Shown: piece by piece, positions 1-12,913 of the stretch
Position numbering within the stretch: position 1 is the stretch's first letter
Layout of the letters: every line of letters begins with the position of its first letter
Assembly: GCA_000827205.1 (NCBI GenBank)
Contig: KN832554.1
Location: 923,263-987,262 of the forward strand
Reading direction: 5' to 3'
From: Plicaturopsis crispa FD-325 SS-3
Lineage: Eukaryota; Basidiomycota; Agaricomycetes; Amylocorticiales; Amylocorticiaceae
DNA: 64,000 nt
The notes under the pieces: generated by a model
Told to the model about the DNA's origin: nothing
The model's database searches: none
What the model saw: only the letters and a program-made list of their open reading frames with translations
Position numbers and translations under genes: made by a program

Positions 1-1328
1 AACCCTGCCGCTCTTCTCTCCGTTCCCAGGCCGCTTAACAAGCATCAACTTGTCGTCAAACAAGAAAAGCGTGCAGTGCAGCGAGCCCGTAGACGAAGGC
101 GGGCCCGACGACGCAGAAGGCGCCACGTCCGGCGACACATCCTCAACATCGATGCAGTCGATAAATCGCCGGGAGTTCGAAATCAGCCCGGGAGGGAACC
201 CATCGACGGTCGCGCTCAGGCAGTACATGATCGTCGCGCGCTTCGTCTGCTCGTCCGTCTCCGCGAGCGCGATCTTGCTCGCGATCTCGTCCGCCTCCAC
301 GAGCTTCGCGCGCTGCGGGTCGCCGGGCGCCATGCGCTTGATCATCGTGCGGAATAAGAGGGTGTACCGCGGGATGCGCTGGACGGGGTCCATCAGCAGC
401 TCGCGCAGGCCCACCCGATTGCGCGTATCCGCGTTGGAGTATTTGATACGCTGGGTCAAAGATGTTAACACGATGCGAGGGAAGGTAGACGGGACCCACG
501 TCAATGAAGGCTGCGAATCCGGACGACCGTTTGGCCATCTCTCGCTCGAATATTGTCTGTGCCTCTTCGCGCTTGATGTAATACTGTTTATAATGCTCGA
601 ACCCGCGTATATCCTTGAAATGCTTCAGCACGACGTCGCCGATGCCGCCCACAGTGTTCGGTCCATCAGGCAAAACCATTCGCTCGAGGTCTGCTAAGAA
701 AGCCTCGTTGACAGGAAGCAGGTTGTCGACATTTCCGAAAAGTGTCTTCGCCTCGTAGGCCGGGAGGATCAAAGTATCCTTGTTCCGCGAGAATCGCCGC
801 AGTGGATCGGCGTAGTCGTGCTTGAGGGTGTGTAGGCGCTTAACGTAGGACCGCTCTGTGGTGACAAGTTCGTTGATGATATCGGCTAATGCGGATGCGT
901 CTGTCATCGCGCGCTTTCGCTGCGTTGCTCGGTCCTACATGGGTGTTTAACGCCTGCGGAGTATTTCAAGGTCGCAAGACCTTGCTGAGAGCGTGATCAT
1001 CCTAGTAATGTACTCACCGTTTCGGCTTCTAAGTTCTGCTCGGAGCTGGACGCAAGAATGGTGCTTCGTGCGGTGGCGCCTAATGGTTCACCAAAGGACA
1101 CAACCAAGTCTTGCACATCTGTTGCCGGTATTATGCTACACATCGCGCACGATAGACGTAGCTCGCACCTTGCGGTAATCTTCTGTTTCCATCTGGGCTC
1201 TCTACAACAAGTCCGCAGAAGAAAACGCGTTTCGTGACGTTGTGTCCGGAGGAGTTGGACCTTGACGGTTGCCAGTCGTCGCCGCTAGCTAACGGTACGA
1301 CCTTTCTCGGAGAAGCGCTCAAGGCCAT
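1..1328 (-). CDS. RhoGEF (DH-PH domain protein), 3' end missing
   Basis: A guanine nucleotide exchange factor for Rho/Cdc42-type GTPases, acting on actin and polarity at the membrane. The gene runs off the left edge. Four exons fit with phases kept: 1328-1169, 1118-1018, 934-500 and 450-1; introns are 49, 83 and 49 nt. The DH domain starts near residue 95 (ADIINELVTTERSYVKRL) and carries the family's helix motif LLMDPVQRIPRYTLLFR. After it come SLHCTLFLFDDKLMLVK residues, which look like the start of a PH domain. An ATG at 907 (MTDASALAD) could also start the protein, but the two short exons upstream read in frame into it, so I prefer 1328. The rest of the protein, and so its exact subfamily (Cdc24-like, Rom2-like, other), lies outside the window. 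Confidence 0.82.
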
Positions 1329-3709: not shown

Positions 3710-4483
3710 ATGTCAGCACTACCATTCAACAAGGATCCCATTCTGTCGTATCTTGGTCTTCCGCGCGAATACGAGCCATCTCCCGAAACATCTCCGGTCG
3801 ATTTCCTCCTCGCCCACCTGCGCGAACTCCCGCCCCACCTCGTATCTACCTTCACCCTCATCACCAGCCCAAAACAGCGCACCATCATACCAACGATCCG
3901 CAATCGCCGCCTAAAATACACTAGTAGCGACCCGCCCGAGTTGAGCTTCACCTCCGCGCGGCGGACATGGCCCACGCTCTGGAGTGGCCGGGAGCGTAGA
4001 GGCCAGGAGGAGGGCAGTGAAGAGAAGGCGTGGGCGAATTCGGTCTTTCTGGGGGGCCTGAAGACGCATGTGGGGAAGCTCGGGGGACTGCTCGGCGACT
4101 ACGAGGAGGAGCGCGAGGCGGAGCGCATCCGGACGATACGCCGTGAGCGCGCTGCGGAGGAGGCGTTTGTGCCCGAAGAGGACAGCGACAGCGAAGACTC
4201 TGATGACGATCCTCCCGGTGCGCAGGCTGGGTCTGCGGCGATCGAGCAAGAGCAGGAGACGGAAGAAGAGGCGAAATCAGCGTTCGAGCGACTCGTACGC
4301 GAACGATTTATTTACGGTCTTTTAGAGGTGCGTGGAATGAATCATGCTACCCCCAAGACAAAAGTTGATTAAAGTGCATGACAGTCCGTAGATTATGATG
4401 CCGTAGACTGGGACGAACGGCTCGACAGCGAGGATGATAGGGACGCAGAAGAGCGGTGGTTTGACGAGGAAGACGAGGGTTGA
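3710..4483 (+). CDS. CCDC97-like protein (CCD97/DUF2052 C-terminal domain)
   Basis: Two exons, 3710-4327 and 4385-4483 (57-nt intron), 238 residues. The end matches the conserved CCDC97 C-terminal domain: FERLVRERFIYGLLE, then VDYDAVDWDERLDSEDDRD, then EERWFDEEDEG at the stop. The middle is rich in acidic residues (EEDSDSEDSDDD). Human CCDC97 is known as a partner of the SF3B complex of the spliceosome, so a nuclear splicing role is the likely one here, by family. The start at 3710 (MSALPFNKDP) is the first ATG in frame and follows the stop of the small membrane protein gene by 73 bp. Confidence 0.8.
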
Positions 4484-4499
4484 CACTGACTGTTGTGTA

Positions 4500-5480
4500 T
4501 TGACATAGCGTATCTCCTGATTCACATCATTGAACGCACCACTGCTATCGACTATGCCTTTGTTCCGTGGTCGACGCTTCGACTGCCCTCAGGTGAGTCC
4601 GGTGAACATGTCTATGTCCTGTATTCAATTGTCCATCGCTAGGAAGCACTCGCCACCAAGTGCTGAGCGCTGTGTTTCGTTCTCTGTTAGGCTTTAGTTT
4701 GGTATTGCGATCAAGGCGGCGTTTCCTTCCTTGCCCCTTGCGGTTTTGACTCTTCGACTTCAATTCTACGTCTAGATTCTGGGGATAATGTCTCCTGCAG
4801 CTTACGAGCATCACCTCTACCCGTGATATCTCGCCAAGCCCCCTTGCATTCTAAGTAGCCGACTCCATTCGACGTCCTGTCTCTCCGGGGCTTGTGACCG
4901 CGACTCTCCTTCGAGGGAACGCGCCTAAGCCAACGTTGGACGACCTGCACGAGCATATGACTCGGGTACTTGAAACAGGGCTCGCATGACATGCCTTCGT
5001 GGAAAGAAAGGCGTAGGCTTGGGTCAAAGAGGGATCCCCATCTACCACAGCGCCCTAACAGACGTCTCCGATGGACATCTTCCAAGGGCCTCGGCGCGCG
5101 TCTCAGCAGTATCATACTATGGTACGGACTTTTCTTTGGACGCAAATGTACACCTACACTCATGTTTGAATCCCTGGCTAGCGAGTTATATCTCCCTCAT
5201 TCTGGTCTAGGATATGGCATTGATTGCAGATGCCTATGCGATAGCAGTCGTTGAAAATGGTACGCCTGTCAATCGCCTGTAAGTAGATTTTGCCCTCTTC
5301 CAGCTAACTCTAATAGGGCATCTCTGCTGTCCGACGTCCGTACGGCAACTACAATATCATCGCTCAAGACAACGGTGACGATCAGTTCGCCTCTCCGAGC
5401 CAGCCTTGCGGGGTTGGCCTGTGTTGGGCGCTGTCTATGCCTCCAGTCATGCCGTTAATGCATTCCGCTATCTCAAAACC
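4500..5480 (+). pseudogene. Unrecognised gene X, copy 1 (possibly decayed), upstream of the first nuclease
   Basis: No complete gene model fits, but several stretches look like coding exons. Near 4500-4640 the frame reads AIDYAFVPWSTLRLPSGE; near 4700-4850 it reads LRLDSGDNVSCSLRASP; at about 5210-5420 two exons around a 47-nt intron read VVENGTPVNR and then NYNIIAQDNGDDQFASP. Each has a weaker counterpart about 3.0 kb downstream, in the second tandem unit (7560-8390), so the stretches belong to the duplicated segment. The second copy has stops in the matching places; this copy has at least one unexplained break between the second and third stretches. I do not know the family. It may be a real multi-exon gene that I failed to join, or a pseudogene. 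Confidence 0.35.
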
Positions 5481-5573
5481 GGAGTGAAACAAGGAGGCCC
5501 GCATTGTAGGTCCTCCTTAGGTCACAATGGAATGCGGAAGAGGCGTATTTATAATGGCCGACTACGAGGAAGA

Positions 5574-5580
5574 TATAAGG
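5574..5580 (+). promoter_or_regulatory. TATA-like box of nuclease copy 1
   Basis: TATAAGG inside GGAAGATATAAGGCG, about 50 bp before the ATG at 5631. The same context, GGAAGATAAAAGGCG, precedes copy 2, so the element survived the duplication. Confidence 0.5.
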
Positions 5581-5630
5581 CGCAGACCGTCTCTTGGACT
5601 AGCAGCAATTCCCACTGCCCTCATTTCATC

Positions 5631-6964
5631 ATGATCAATATCCTCCAAGTTAGCGTCGCTATCCTGCTCTTTGCGGTGCACGAGACTAGCGCCGCTAAAG
5701 TGTTCGGATTGCAAACCGGGTCGTACCCGGATGTTGCTGACCACCACTGCATTGCAGTACGCAATCCCGTTATATCTCATCTTATGCTGCGCGCGCTGAT
5801 GTTTTCTCTTCTCCTCCTAGTGGGCGTGTGATGGTGTAAGATATGCCGAAACGGATCCCAACCCGAGAGGTTTCCACCGCGCAACTTCTCTCAACTTTGT
5901 CAGGAACAGACGCCACGCAATTGGCTGCGATGGCGTTACCCAGTGTGGTAGCGGAAGACAATGCGATGAAGTGCGCCGCCTTTGATTCATTCACGAGACG
6001 TCGTGGAGCTGATCTGGACTGGGATATAGATACCTTATGCCAGTACCTTCGACGGTGGTTTGGGATGCTATGCTAGTGAATGGACGAACTCCGGCCGTCC
6101 TTTGAGCGACTTGTACAACTTCGGTACTCATCGATGCGTTTCTTCCCATGACAACGGCGGTAGCTATCGTTCTCTTCACCTGCATGAGCATATTTAACAA
6201 TCTCTTTCTAGCCCACGGAAGCGCAGTGAGCACATTCTACAGGTGAGCCACACCTTGAACCCCCTGCCGTCGCGTCAAAAATTGACAAACTGCTTTAGCC
6301 AACAAAACGTGGGCAACTTCGGGCTATTGTAAGTCTACGTGCACAACATGACTCATGACCGCTAATGTGTAGTCATCTTTAGTTTCATCGCCTGGATTAC
6401 AAACAACAACGGTTGCACGTCCGCTCCGTACTGCAACCGATTCCTCAATGCATTCAAAACTGGACAACCCTACGCGCCCATTTGTGCTGCGGCGCGCGCT
6501 GACGGACGTCAGTATGCGTGAGTGACTACAGATTATAGTGACCAAAATTTGATGTAGCTGACCTCACAAACAGCAAGGTCACCAGCTCAGCTTACACACG
6601 GGTGAGTATAAACTATTCCTCTGTGGACTCGTCGTAGTCATTGAACAATGTGTGGCTTTGCTCTTAGGCTCCTCGCTGCCCGTCGCGCAACTATCGCCGC
6701 GACACGGGTGAATTCGAGGATGACTTGGAGGATGAGGTCGTACCCAGTGACCCCCCTACGCTTGACGCTAACGCAACATTGTCACCTCGCGTCGGCCTCC
6801 TCGACAACGGGATGAAGGTCATGGAGACTTGGGGGCAGCTCAGCATTGGCGACGAAGTCTGGATCCACGACGAGACTCTTCTGAACGGCACGTTCAGCAA
6901 GATCGTCAACTTCACAACTCCGGCAGAGGCTTTCGGGCATCTGGAGGGTCGTCAGCAATGCTGA
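5631..6964 (+). CDS. Secreted NucA/NucB-type deoxyribonuclease, tandem copy 1
   Basis: Eight exons: 5631-5756, 5821-5970, 6030-6159, 6212-6242, 6299-6328, 6383-6517, 6574-6601, 6668-6964. All phases agree and give 308 residues. A signal peptide (ILQVSVAILLFAVHETSAA) starts the protein. The core has the NucA/NucB hallmark across an intron: GSGRQCDE then IPYASTFDGG, comparable to the family's CDEYPFAST motif. Next come CVSSHDNGAHGSAVSTFY, resembling the family's DN..G...FY segment, and paired cysteines (GCTSAPYC, ICAAARADGRQY). The last 100 residues, with an acidic run (FEDDLEDEV) and a terminal Cys, lie beyond the bacterial core and have no function I can name. The likely role is extracellular DNA hydrolysis. 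Family assignment rests on motif memory, not a search. Confidence 0.75.
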
Positions 6965-7559
6965 TTCGATGGACCAAATCGTGGCACTTATCTGCCGCGA
7001 GCTTGCGTACCACACTGCATGCGCCCGTCCCGTCTTTCTATCGGAGCAGCCCCTCTGCCCAACTTTCAATTTCGTCATTTTAAGGCTTCCCGACCTATCT
7101 TCGTCCCGAGATTCGTGCCGGATGGGGGATAAAGTGGCGCAAAACCTATGTACTCCTTCACTTTCCGATTCGTTCTTTCCTGTTCACGCTCTGATTGTTT
7201 TGCCTGTTCTTTACTACCTGTGTATTCTGCTCTTTCTAGGCTTACGGTGCTGCTGCTGGATGTACTTAACGTATAGTACATATTTGGAATTTCAAGTCGT
7301 TCGAGTTAGCGCGGTTCAACTGAGTCGTACAACGTTCCAACGTTCATGATCTATGCGAAGTGCAAGACCTCGGACTTCCGAAAGTTGTCCGAAAGCCTCT
7401 TACAAGTTACAACCTTTCATCAACATAATATTATCCTCCTGCTCTCTCCTGCTATGCCTGGTTTCTCTGATTCCTCTACATCTAGCGCAGTGTTCATGCA
7501 AATGTCCGTACTACTCTGCACTCAGTTCTGCAATATCTACCGATGCATTGAGCAAGCAC
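6965..7559. other. 3' flank of nuclease copy 1
   Basis: Pyrimidine-rich and AT-rich trailer of copy 1. Parts, such as the run near 7180-7240, resemble the trailer of copy 2 near 10060-10200. I see no gene in it. Confidence 0.4.
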
Positions 7560-8390
7560 TAATACATGCAATGGGCGGGTGCCTCAGGCTCGCGATCGGG
7601 AGGATGTCCAGCTGGTCGTCACTCAAGGCGGCATCATCTCCACGACCAGACCTGTAACCGGTATCTCTTTAGAAAGGCAAGCATGTGGTGGGTATCGACG
7701 CTTGCCCATCATCCAGAGTGGCCACCAGGATGCCTACTCCCTGGCATCTCCTTTCGCGACTTTGACCCGTCACGGTCAGCAGCGGTCAGCTTCAGGCTGA
7801 ACCCAAAGGATCAACACAGGATTATATCTCCTGCTGCCAGCTGCAGCTAACGAATCCTCCCATCTTGGCCGACGATCTCCGTGGCACATTATGAAGCCCG
7901 CTTGAATTCTAAGTAACCGACCTCACCAGTGATAGCCAACTCTCGCGGGACTCATCGGGGTTTGTGAGAACGATGGACGGGCCCAGTACGATGCTACGAT
8001 TCTGGTGCCCTGAACAAGCGCCCGCTAGTATGAGTGGGGAGATGTTCGGCGAGCAAAAATGCTAGTGCGTCAAGAAATATTTGATACTTCCTCTGCCGGC
8101 CTACGTTCACTACATTTTGCATCGACAATGACTCTGAATGAAGATATACGACTGATACAAGAGAAGGCGCTATTCACTGGCAGTCCATTCGCAGCAGCTG
8201 CAGGATACAGGTGCGCCTGACAATAGCTTGTTAGTATGTAAACACGCGACGGCGTTGTGCTTCTGACACAGGCTATCGCGCCTTGTAGCGCTTAGACATA
8301 GCTCCGCGCGGCAATTGCAATAAAGCTGCGAAACATGATCAATTCTCCTCTTCGACCAACTCCTTGCAGACCTAGTATTTGTAAGGGGGT
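7560..8390 (+). pseudogene. Unrecognised gene X, copy 2, decayed
   Basis: This stretch aligns by eye with 4550-5450, at an offset of about 2.97-3.04 kb. Matching landmarks are GATTATATCTCCTGC (copy 1: GATAATGTCTCCTGC), CTTGAATTCTAAGTAACCGA (copy 1: CTTGCATTCTAAGTAGCCGA), GGTGCGCCTGACAAT (copy 1: GGTACGCCTGTCAAT) and GGCAATTGCAATA (copy 1: GGCAACTACAATA). One open run at 7579-7800 reads PIIQSGHQDAYSLASPF, comparable to the SGDNVSCSLRASP run of copy 1. The part matching copy 1's NYNIIAQDNGDDQ exon has stops here, so this copy is probably dead. The family is unknown. Confidence 0.3.
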
Positions 8391-8545
8391 TGCACCTGCC
8401 TCCCACTACGGCGTCAATATTTGCTTCGCATCTCAACAGCATTAGCGCCCGATCGGGTGAAACATGGAGGCCAGTACTCAAGGTCGTCCTAGGCAAGTCA
8501 CGACTGTGGAAATGGCATCTTGATATTGACCGACTTTGTAGGAAG

Positions 8546-8553
8546 ATAAAAGG
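8546..8553 (+). promoter_or_regulatory. TATA-like box of nuclease copy 2
   Basis: ATAAAAGG in GGAAGATAAAAGGCG, about 50 bp before the ATG at 8602, with context matching the box of copy 1. Confidence 0.5.
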
Positions 8554-8601
8554 CGAGGAAAGGTGCATTGTGCAAACAGCAATTTGCAGCGCCCTTTCGT
8601 C

Positions 8602-9984
8602 ATGAAAAACATCCTCCTCCAAGTTGGTCTTGCCATCCTGCTCTTCACGTTGCGTGGGGCTAGTGCTCAACAAACATTTGGTTTGGTACCCGACGATTAC
8701 CCAGATGTTGGGGACCATCACTGCCTTGCAGTACGTTGTCCCATCCTACTCCATTCTTCTTGCTACACGCCCAAGTCGCTGATGTTTTTGTTTTTTTCTC
8801 CCCAGTGGGCGTGTGCCAATATTAAGTACAAACAGACAGATGTTCCTCGGGGAGGTTTCCACCGCGCTACATCCAGTCGATATGTCAGGAACAGACGTCA
8901 TGCAATTGGCTGCGACGGTGTCACCCACTGCGGCAGCGGAAGGCAATGCGACGAAGTACGTCTCTCTGATCATTCGCGCACTTCGAGATGTCGTGGAATT
9001 CATTCTATCTCGGTCCATGTGTAGATTCCTTATGCCAGCACCTTTGATGGTGGACTGAGTTGCTTTTCTAGCGAATGGACAAACTCCGGTCGAGCTCTGG
9101 CTAATTTATACTCGTGGGGCACTCATCGCTGCGTGTCGAGTCATGACAATGCTGGTGGGTATATGTTATCATCCGCTCAGCATCCGAATCTTATGAACTA
9201 CATGTGCTATATAGCTCATGGGAATGCCGTCGGAGCCTTCTATCGGTACGTTCGTCCTGGACATATACTGACAGCCTTTTATCTTACGTGGCCGTCATCT
9301 GTTACAGTCAAAGCAACGTAGCCAACTTTGAAGAATAGTACGTTTGTGTACTGCACATTTGTCTTTCACTTTACTAATATATTTTATCCAGCTACATCGC
9401 CTGGATTCTAAACAGCGCAGGCTGCACCAATGCTAGGTGGTGCAACTCTGTCATCAATGCACAAAGCGCTGGCGGAGACTTCAGGGCCGTTTGTGCCGCC
9501 GCTCGCAACGATGGGAGACAGTTTGCGTAAGTCGTTCGAATTGTTGCTCCTTCCCGTACCCCAGCTGATACATTTCTTTGCTAGCCTGGTGACACAATCG
9601 CAATACACCCAGGTGCGCAGGGAATTACCCTTCACCGGCATATTATTCATTACTAACCTGAATATATTATATCAGGCTCCGCGTTGTCCCTCGCACCATT
9701 ACCGTCGCGACACAGACGAAATCGAAGACGATCTAGAGGATGAAGTAGAAGCTCTGCCCAGTAACGCGACTGCGCTTGACGTGAATACGACAAGGGTAGC
9801 GTCACCTCGCATCGGCCATCTCGAGAATGGGATGAAGGTGATGGAGGTCTGGGGGAAACTCAGCATTGGTGACCGCATTTGGATTCACGACAAGACTTTC
9901 TTGAACGGGACGCACAGTGAGATCGTCAACATGACGACCTTCGAGGAAGCTTTCGGCCACCTGCAGAGTCGTCAGCAGTGCTAA
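8602..9984 (+). CDS. Secreted NucA/NucB-type deoxyribonuclease, tandem copy 2
   Basis: Eight exons: 8602-8730, 8806-8955, 9025-9154, 9215-9245, 9308-9337, 9392-9526, 9585-9612, 9676-9984; 313 residues. Exons 2-7 have exactly the same lengths as in copy 1 (150, 130, 31, 30, 135, 28 nt). The signal peptide is ILLQVGLAILLFTLRGASA. Motifs parallel copy 1: GSGRQCDE/IPYASTFDGG, CVSSHDNAAHGNAVGAFY, GCTNARWC, VCAAARNDGRQF. The C-terminal extension keeps the acidic run (IEDDLEDEVE), GMKVMEVWGKLSIGD and the terminal QSRQQC. Both copies are open and have good splice sites, so both may be active. The high conservation of cysteines and of the putative catalytic region suggests selection. Substrate preference cannot be read from the sequence. 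Confidence 0.75.
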
Positions 9985-10314: not shown

Positions 10315-12686
10315 TCAACTCTCTTCCTCTGTGGAGCCCTCGGCGTCCAGACTGTTGACGGTCCCGGTACCATTCCCGCTCCCACTTCGCCCTTGCGCGC
10401 GCGTCCCAGGACCGGTGCTTGAACCCGCCTCCCCACCGTCCTCCTCTATCGTATCAGCACTTGTAATCTTCCTCTTCTGCCCGCGGTTGCCCTCGGCGGG
10501 CAGATGGGATTTCTTTACTACCAAGATATCCATGATTTCTACAAGAAGAGACAGTGCCCAATAAGTTACAGTTACAGTGGTTAAGACGAAGGCGCGCGCA
10601 CCTTGATGCGTCATGTCCTCGTAGCCCTTGATGCTCCGCTTCATGGTAAGCCATCTACGCTGTAGCGAGTGCGCGCTCCAAAGATTCCAGTGTGGATCGG
10701 AAAGAATTTTCCAGTCGATCTCTGTGTCGTCACGCACATTGAGAGAGTTCACCTTGTGAACGAGGATGAACGCGTCCTGCTGGCTCCACCGCGGCTTCTG
10801 CCCTTCATTTTTCACGGTTTTGCTCAACGAATCCGTCCTGCATGTTATCGTAAATATACAGCGCCAACGCAGACAAACTCGAGCTTACCACTTGATTCGG
10901 CACTGCTGTCTACCGCGCTTGTTGCCCATGCGCTCGCTGACAACTCCCCAGAACACATCGTTGTCAACGTCCCGTCCTTGGTTGACGGTGATCTCCGTGA
11001 CAATCTGTGTAAGCATGTCTTCCTCCTCTTTTGTCCAATGGCCTGCGATCAAAACATAAGCACACGGCCGTGTGTAAAAGTATCGATAGACTGACCAGTA
11101 ACGCGAACTTCACGGTTCGCTATATGGTTACGGTAACGATCTCTGCAGTCCGACGACATGCGCCCGACCCTCTCGCTGACCTTCTCCCATTGTTGTCCGA
11201 GATCCATCACGGCCCTACATCGAGTAGTGAGAGGCAGGAAAACCCTCAATGATGAGAAGACTGACTGTTTAAGGATGTCATCCTCAGCCTTCATCCACTT
11301 GCCCTGCTGCTTCATGGGATGGTAGCTTCTACGGACGTGGTGGTAAACCGCAATAATCGGCCGCTGAGGTACGGCAGAAGCTATTTGTTCCACGAGTAAG
11401 GATTCCACCCACAAGCATGGATATAGAAGACGCACTAATTTCCGACCAAAACGTATTTTCCTTGCCCTTTTCGTTCTTAGCGAATATGAGATCGTGCATT
11501 TGCTCTGGAGACAGCGAGTTTTTCTGAATGAGGAGTTGAGAGGCAACCATACACGATAGTCAATGCCACTCACAAAGCGGTAGTCCTCAATTGCGGTTCG
11601 CAATTGGTGCTCCTCGATCGCAGAGAACTTGCCCTTTTTGTAGACTAGGCCCTCTGTCCGGACAAGCTCGGAAAGCTTACTTGCGTTCATCCACTTTGTC
11701 GCAAGTATGTGCGCGTGCTCCGGGTTACCGTAGATTTCCGGCCCAGGAAGGCTCATATCGAGGGTACGTTTATGCTGTGGCTGCCCTTCTGGTGGCTGTT
11801 TGTTTGAACGCGCGGGTGGCTTGGACGGTTGCCCAAGGATTGACTCGGACGATTGTGGGATCTGACCAAGCTGTGCGGGGGTTGGTCCTCGCTCGTCGGG
11901 AGGGGGTGCGATAAACTGAGGCATGCCGCTCATTGGTGGCCCCGGGTGCGTCCCAGCAGCATCGCCGAGCGCTTTGAGGGCCTGCGCAATCTTGGACACG
12001 TCGAGGTCTTGTAGTGCGCGTAGTATGTCCTCGTTGGATGCTCCAGCTAGCATGGAGTCCGGGAAGGGAATATCCATGTTCTGTTGGGGGAACATGGGAG
12101 AAGGCTGCGCATATTGATTGTATGCATATGGATATGGCGCGTAATTTGGCGGTGGCTGGGAAGGAAGATGGTACGGATGCTGCGGGAGCTCTTGCTGAGG
12201 CTGCTGCTGCTGATCCTGGGTGGCCGACGCCGCCGCCACCACGGCAGATAAGAACGCGGCTGCAGAAGTAGACGCAGCGTTTGGTGGGGATACCAGTTGT
12301 GGATCGATATACGCCTCGGTGCTGGCATTGGCATTGGCGTGAACCTGGGCACTCTCGAAGTCGACAATGCCTACTTGCTCGTTCTGCTGCGCCGTCCTCT
12401 TCCCCTTACCCTTTTTCGACTTTTTCCTGGTTCCCTCCTCCACCTGAGCTGCCTCCGCTCCTGCCATCGGGATCGCATCCGTGATGTCCGCCTTCTTTCG
12501 TTTCTTTTTCTTCTCCTTCACCGTCGAGCCATTATCGTCCGCGACATCCTCTTCCCTGACGCATTTCTTCTTCTTCTTCCCGGCGTCGTTGTTCGGTGTG
12601 GTGTATGCGCCATTGGCTTCGCCGACTGCATGCTGTAGAGCGCGTTCGATGTCAGAGGTAAGAGACGACGATGCTAGCGATTCCAT
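10315..12686 (-). CDS. Myb/SANT DNA-binding protein of the Reb1/TTF-I type
   Basis: Starts MESLASSSLTSDIERALQ at 12686; an in-frame ATG at 12833 is possible but the extra sequence looks non-coding. The N-terminal half is low-complexity: lysine clusters (KKKKKC, KEKKKKRKKAD) that can serve as nuclear localisation signals, then Gln/Pro/Tyr-rich stretches. The C-terminal half holds a row of Myb-like repeats spread over several exons: FSAIEEHQLRTAIEDYRF, GKWMKAEDDILKQ, GQQWEKVSERVGRMSSDCRD, then HWTKEEEDMLTQIVTEI with FWGVVSERMGNKRG and QQCRIKW, and last PRWSQQDAFILVHKVN with the SLQRRWLTMKRSI end. This order fits fungal Reb1 and animal TTF-I, which bind rDNA terminators and some promoters. It is hydrophilic and acid-rich at the tail. 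The subfamily is by pattern only. Confidence 0.78.
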
Positions 12687-12913
12687 TTGTGATTTAGGGC
12701 GGGCCAACAATCGAGTGAGGGCAAGCGCGGTCGGCGCTGCTCCCGCCCAATCGGAATCGGGTATCGGAGTTAGCAGCCGCCACCTATGACGGATAATTTC
12801 ATGTTTACCGTCGCTGACTTCACTGTGCGACAAGCGCCGCTATGAAGCGCTCACCGTTCTCGTTCAGAATCTTGTCGAAAGTGATATCTGATCTGGCTGC
12901 ATAAATACGACAA

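Follow-up and report, generated by a model that had tools for sequence, protein, structure and literature searches.

Two neighboring genes of the fungus Plicaturopsis crispa FD-325 SS-3, here called A and B, lie within a window of 64,000 nucleotides (contig KN832554.1, positions 923,263 to 987,262, assembly GCA_000827205.1). On sequence grounds, they are quite probably intact tandem copies of long standing for a metal-dependent DNase of the NucA/NucB (beta-beta-alpha metal) type that would be secreted to break down environmental DNA, and a Kex2-type protease may cleave the proteins before an acidic C-terminal tail. An initial annotation, made from the letters of the window, had already placed both proteins in the NucA/NucB family, and a Pfam search bore this out. 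Against PF14040 (DNase_NucA_NucB), A scored 30.8 bits (E 4.5e-7, residues 56-151) and B scored 37.1 bits (E 4.8e-9, residues 61-159), and both thus exceed the curated threshold of the family (23.8 bits). Neither protein matched any other Pfam family at E values up to 10 or any NCBIfam model at E values up to 1, and a search of PHROGs returned two weak matches for B (0.017 and 0.33) and none for A.

How a NucA/NucB nuclease holds its metal has been described for Bacillus NucB. BsNucB requires four residues: His47, Asp87, Glu88 (given in one place as D88), and Asn111. Changes to the Asp, Glu, or Asn abolish activity, and in this enzyme Asp and Asn serve the metal while Glu replaces the usual His (PMC5758888). 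We checked this numbering by a residue count along the NucB sequence at locus L025. An alignment was then built of 20 rows, comprising 15 bacterial proteins and five from this genome (A, B, and three further members, C, D, and E), each trimmed around the DExP motif, for want of which no row was lost. The Asp-Glu pair of motif 1 was found in 20 of 20 rows. The metal-ligand Asn of motif 2 was found in 19, all five of this genome included, and the exception was the row of Streptomyces flavofungini. The initial annotation had said that misaligned acidic residues would undo the family call; the catalytic Asp and Glu align, as does the Asn, and the alignment gives Asp92, Glu93, and Asn135 as the corresponding residues of B. 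His39 of B, within the YP[DE]xxxH sequence of both proteins, falls on the supporting His47 of BsNucB, in non-significant alignments only. By analogy with what has been proposed for NucB, a Mg or Mn ion would be bound by Asn135 and Asp92 of B, with Glu93 as the general base. The hydrophobic N terminus would route each protein into the secretory path, five or six disulfides would hold the fold, and the enzymes would cut DNA outside the cell. Their likeliest use would be the breakdown of environmental DNA, either as food or from competitors.

Several observations weigh against A and B being DNases of this kind. First, the disulfide of NucB (Cys66-Cys100 of BlNucB) is not found, as the position of Cys100, which follows motif 1, is occupied by Thr in B. 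We note that the same position is not Cys in any of nine actinobacterial rows, and that the disulfide of BlNucB is dispensable, 10 mM dithiothreitol being without significant effect on activity (PMC5758888). Second, the stretch from Glu to Asn is 19 residues longer in A and B than in BsNucB. Third, when B, E, and a combined A/B/C profile were searched against the PDB (E up to 10), no nuclease was returned and the NucB chain 5OMT was not reached, to which the sole alignment was that of a bridging Priestia NucA/NucB protein (E 0.63). Finally, the match of that profile to five short NucB proteins from Bacillaceae and Paenibacillus was not significant (0.24). Bacillus NucB is also the smaller protein, with about 110 mature residues and one disulfide (PMC5758888), whereas A and B, with 12 cysteines in the mature protein, carry in addition a Cys-rich extension and, beyond it, an acidic tail. 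The longer inter-motif stretch, together with a Cys-rich extension that is lacking in 14 of the 15 bacterial rows, might indicate a protein that keeps the NucA/NucB fold and has lost general DNase activity, acting instead on RNA, for example, or by binding only. We consider such a protein improbable, as the Asp-Glu pair and the Asn are retained in all five members of the genome and the core is constrained (dN, the nonsynonymous divergence, is 0.19 for A against B).

At the profile level, a match was obtained with long bacterial proteins, of the actinobacterial type. Residues 23-215 of A, B, and C, combined into a profile, were compared with one built from ten such NucA/NucB proteins cut to 200 residues each and matched it at 5e-10 with a score of 67.0; the reversed profile scored 16.1 (0.13), and the best of 40 column shuffles scored 24.3. 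Some of the ten were chosen because B had found them, and the sample is to that extent not independent. The same profile matched D and E at 6.9e-5, but these scores do not rank kinship because profile depth differs between the sets. When residues 1-211 of B were compared by tblastn with 72,556 plasmid records, matches were found in 18 (17 from Streptomyces and one from Kitasatospora), of which 15 were annotated as NucA/NucB, and the matches were weak (E 6e-3 to 0.6). The nine actinobacterial rows of our alignment (L020-L022, L024, L029-L033) belong to the best-matching profile and share with A and B a core of the type NR...C...CDE[YF]PF followed by the pattern N..G...[FY]; in six of the nine, HR precedes the core, as it does in A, B, and C. 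They differ in that the protein stops just after the nuclease in all nine, whereas A and B continue for about 150 residues. We also observed that, in each of these nine plasmid loci, a hypothetical gene on either strand follows the NucA/NucB gene, at a distance of at most 60 nucleotides in seven, and in some loci that gene is possibly an immunity partner.

Whether the fungal genes came from bacteria was a question that the initial annotation had proposed to test with a tree. The tree was made from the 20 rows, the 15 bacterial ones being plasmid-borne only; of its 17 inner branches, 9 are marked as open and 5 carry a star. Its supports were 96/100 for A, B, and C together, 100/100 for D with E, and 90/96 for A with B against C, and the test did not reject the grouping of the genome's five proteins in a single clade (approximately unbiased test, P = 0.374), an outcome that is not decisive. 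Two scans of a genome contig collection (48 and 81 pattern stretches) and one of a viral contig collection (38 pattern stretches) gave no relative confirmed by tblastn, and as each scan relied on two short peptide patterns, the miss says little. On these data, a bacterial origin is neither shown nor excluded.

That A and B arose by tandem gene duplication is supported by their arrangement. The genes lie head to tail on the same strand, with a start-to-start distance of 2,971 nucleotides, and have introns at the same positions, a shared flank, and the standing of sister copies. Exons 2 to 7 are equal in length in the two genes (150, 130, 31, 30, 135, and 28 nucleotides), and GT...AG borders are present in 7 of 7 introns of A and 7 of 7 of B, the introns being 52 to 75 nucleotides in size. 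Exon borders were set by eye and then built by script, so the gene structures are splice models read from the DNA, and hydrophobicity was the sole basis for calling the putative signal peptides. The two proteins are 67% identical, and all 12 mature cysteines align between them. The initial annotation had described proteins of 308 and 313 residues from eight-exon genes 2.97 kb apart, with equal exons 2 to 7 and the same cysteine positions, and each of these points agrees with our models and alignment. Its claim of tandem duplication likewise stands on the shared exon plan, the homology of the upstream flanks, and the grouping of A with B against C.

The flanks of the two genes differ in what they retain. 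The initial annotation had held that upstream sequence could be aligned for up to about 1 kb, and indeed, when the upstream sequences of the two genes were aligned over about 1 kb, the score beat 100 of 100 dinucleotide shuffles under each of two scorings and did so again without the proximal 180 nucleotides; the homology is only patchy, however, over roughly 0.8 to 1 kb. Significant pieces of the ungapped type are found near the start codons and in a 28-nucleotide block that begins 795 nucleotides 5' of the start codon of A and 708 nucleotides 5' of that of B. The core of the block, TTCTAAGTANCCGAC, occurs twice in the 33.2-Mb genome, once upstream of A and once upstream of B, and the reversed control occurs nowhere. 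The block may be a conserved control element, because it persists while synonymous sites are near saturation. By comparison, sequence downstream of A and B does not stand out from its shuffles (6 and 10 of 100 scored as high), nor does sequence upstream of C align with that upstream of A (19 and 57 of 100) or of B (35 and 31 of 100).

Judged by their divergence, A and B are old, intact copies under constraint. Between them, dN is 0.24 and the synonymous divergence (dS) is 1.43 by NG86 or 2.08 by YN00. With dS this close to saturation, the resulting ratio (about 0.12 to 0.17) gives a rough estimate of selection, which is a further point against our reading. Likeness is greatest in exon 2 (119 of 140 aligned), followed by exon 8 (230 of 293), and such unevenness might be expected if the copies were recent, or were kept alike by gene conversion, and dosage were the main point of having two. 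We regard this account as very improbable given dS of 1.4 to 2.1, the 67% identity of the proteins, and downstream flanks that do not align. Two candidates were set aside: a recent duplication is disfavored by the near-saturated dS, and decay of one copy is disfavored as both frames are intact and constrained.

What follows the nuclease in these proteins is the part that merits attention; the extra conserved tail is lacking in nearly all of the bacterial rows compared. In A, B, and C, a Cys-rich part leads to the dibasic YRR, which is followed by an acidic linker and then a segment of about 60 residues with a terminal, twelfth cysteine. Among the bacterial rows, the protein ends just after the nuclease in all nine actinobacterial and all five short NucB rows, and the long Priestia protein continues. 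The end of the tail is as well conserved between A and B as the core, with 43 of the final 59 residues alike against 93 of 128. Searched against the genome, exon 8 of B matched A, B, and C only (E up to 10), and the tail matched no family in Pfam. A Hint-like identity for the tail found no support in the Pfam search, and PDB matches of the tail region to 19 PAK kinase sequences (E 0.52 to 1.9) were taken as chance.

The acidic C-terminal part lies behind the dibasic site, where a Kex2-type protease might cut, and its final cysteine may tether the tail to the core. Up to the dibasic site and less the presumed signal, the net charge is +7 in A, +4 in B, and +12 in C, with 11 cysteines in each; after the site, it is -14, -11, and -17, with one cysteine in each. 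The odd number of cysteines before the site hints that the final cysteine bonds to the core. The opposed charges, the presence of the dibasic site in three of three proteins, the 11-to-1 division of cysteines, and the conservation of the tail could all be accommodated if A and B were secreted zymogens in which the acidic tail blocks a basic nuclease until Kex2-type cleavage. We think this unlikely, however, as acidic linkers are common, a second RR (RRHA) occurs inside the core, the tail has no Pfam match, and an AlphaFold model of exon 8 made from two sequences was unusable (predicted local distance difference test score of 40). Going further, one could guess that the tail of A, B, and C is a DNA-like plug, tied by a disulfide through the final cysteine and loosened by cleavage at the dibasic site; we hold this more detailed form to be rather doubtful. 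If true, it would be a self-guarding design without description for NucA/NucB nucleases in the portions of the literature surveyed, and if the tail does control activity, it would illustrate a safe way for cells to export a nonspecific DNase.

The genome (33.2 Mb in 49 contigs), which by its size and short introns suits a fungus, contains at least three members beside A and B, bringing the family to five or more. Contig C2 carries gene C, which follows the eight-exon plan of A and B and encodes 327 residues, 50% identical to B. Two more, D and E, are four-exon genes for 220 residues each and are separated by about 17 kb on contig C12. C, D, and E are also over the PF14040 cut-off, at 41.5, 47.2, and 47.1 bits. 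D and E form a second NucA/NucB pair (L018 2079-2929 and L019 2288-3134), 74% identical, with exons of 289, 216, 51, and 107 nucleotides in both. Together, A to E document a small family of putative secreted nucleases with the catalytic residues kept, which as a plain gene family is routine.

NucA/NucB proteins of fungi are already in print, and A and B are another instance of that domain. An abundant sclerotial protein of Lignosus tigris, 230NA, has this Pfam domain and is 47% identical to a Trametes versicolor protein (PMC7413093), and virus-like elements of Debaryomyces hansenii encode proteins with NucA/NucB fragments (PMC8472843), two of three of which carry chitinase-like parts, a difference from A and B. 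The proteins of both papers are likened to ours by the authors' domain descriptions rather than by sequence comparison. The view of the initial annotation that the family is mainly bacterial, and fungal copies therefore notable, is weakened by these reports and by the further members in this genome. Elsewhere, a Diaporthe protein table includes one NucA/NucB (PMC11433127), fungal DNases of the TatD and DNase I-like types have been studied (PMC6401486), and a Ganoderma secretome notes nucleases, the word NucA being absent from the accessible portion (PMC9409662). A biochemical study of a fungal NucA/NucB protein was not found in the open-licence literature, surveyed mostly by listings.

Table 1. 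Features of the A/B locus, in window positions
Feature	Position	Strand	Remarks
Gene A, secreted NucA/NucB-type nuclease (predicted)	5631-6964	+	8 exons, 308 aa; splice model and PF14040
Gene B, secreted NucA/NucB-type nuclease (predicted)	8602-9984	+	8 exons, 313 aa; splice model and PF14040
Gene A exons	5631-5756, 5821-5970, 6030-6159, 6212-6242, 6299-6328, 6383-6517, 6574-6601, 6668-6964	+	
Gene B exons	8602-8730, 8806-8955, 9025-9154, 9215-9245, 9308-9337, 9392-9526, 9585-9612, 9676-9984	+	
A exon 1	5631-5756	+	Signal-like hydrophobic N terminus and YPDVADHHC
B exon 1	8602-8730	+	Signal-like hydrophobic N terminus and YPDVGDHHC
A exon 2	5821-5970	+	Motif 1 at its end (GRQCDE; Asp91-Glu92)
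B exon 2	8806-8955	+	Motif 1 at its end (GRQCDE; Asp92-Glu93)
A exon 3	6030-6159	+	IPYASTFDGG and motif 2 (SHDN; Asn134)
B exon 3	9025-9154	+	IPYASTFDGG and motif 2 (SHDN; Asn135)
A exon 8	6668-6964	+	Last core Cys, dibasic YRR, acidic linker, conserved C-terminal segment with final Cys
B exon 8	9676-9984	+	Last core Cys, dibasic YRR, acidic linker, conserved C-terminal segment with final Cys
Start-proximal upstream region of A	5484-5582	+	72% over 103 columns vs B; ungapped-type significant piece
Start-proximal upstream region of B	8457-8555	+	72% over 103 columns vs A; ungapped-type significant piece
28-nt upstream block of A	4836-4863	+	25/28 identical to B block; significant piece; noncoding
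28-nt upstream block of B	7894-7921	+	Significant piece; noncoding

Other genes of the window were noted in passing. Just upstream of A, positions 3710-4483 (+) encode a CCD97-like protein (PF09747, 1.1e-6), with one intron set by eye. Downstream of B, an open frame at 11049-12833 (-) has a Myb-like DNA-binding match of 24.3 bits, just below the cut-off of 24.4, and is probably part of a longer spliced gene. Finally, a frame at 143-907 (-) carries a RhoGEF domain (7e-19).

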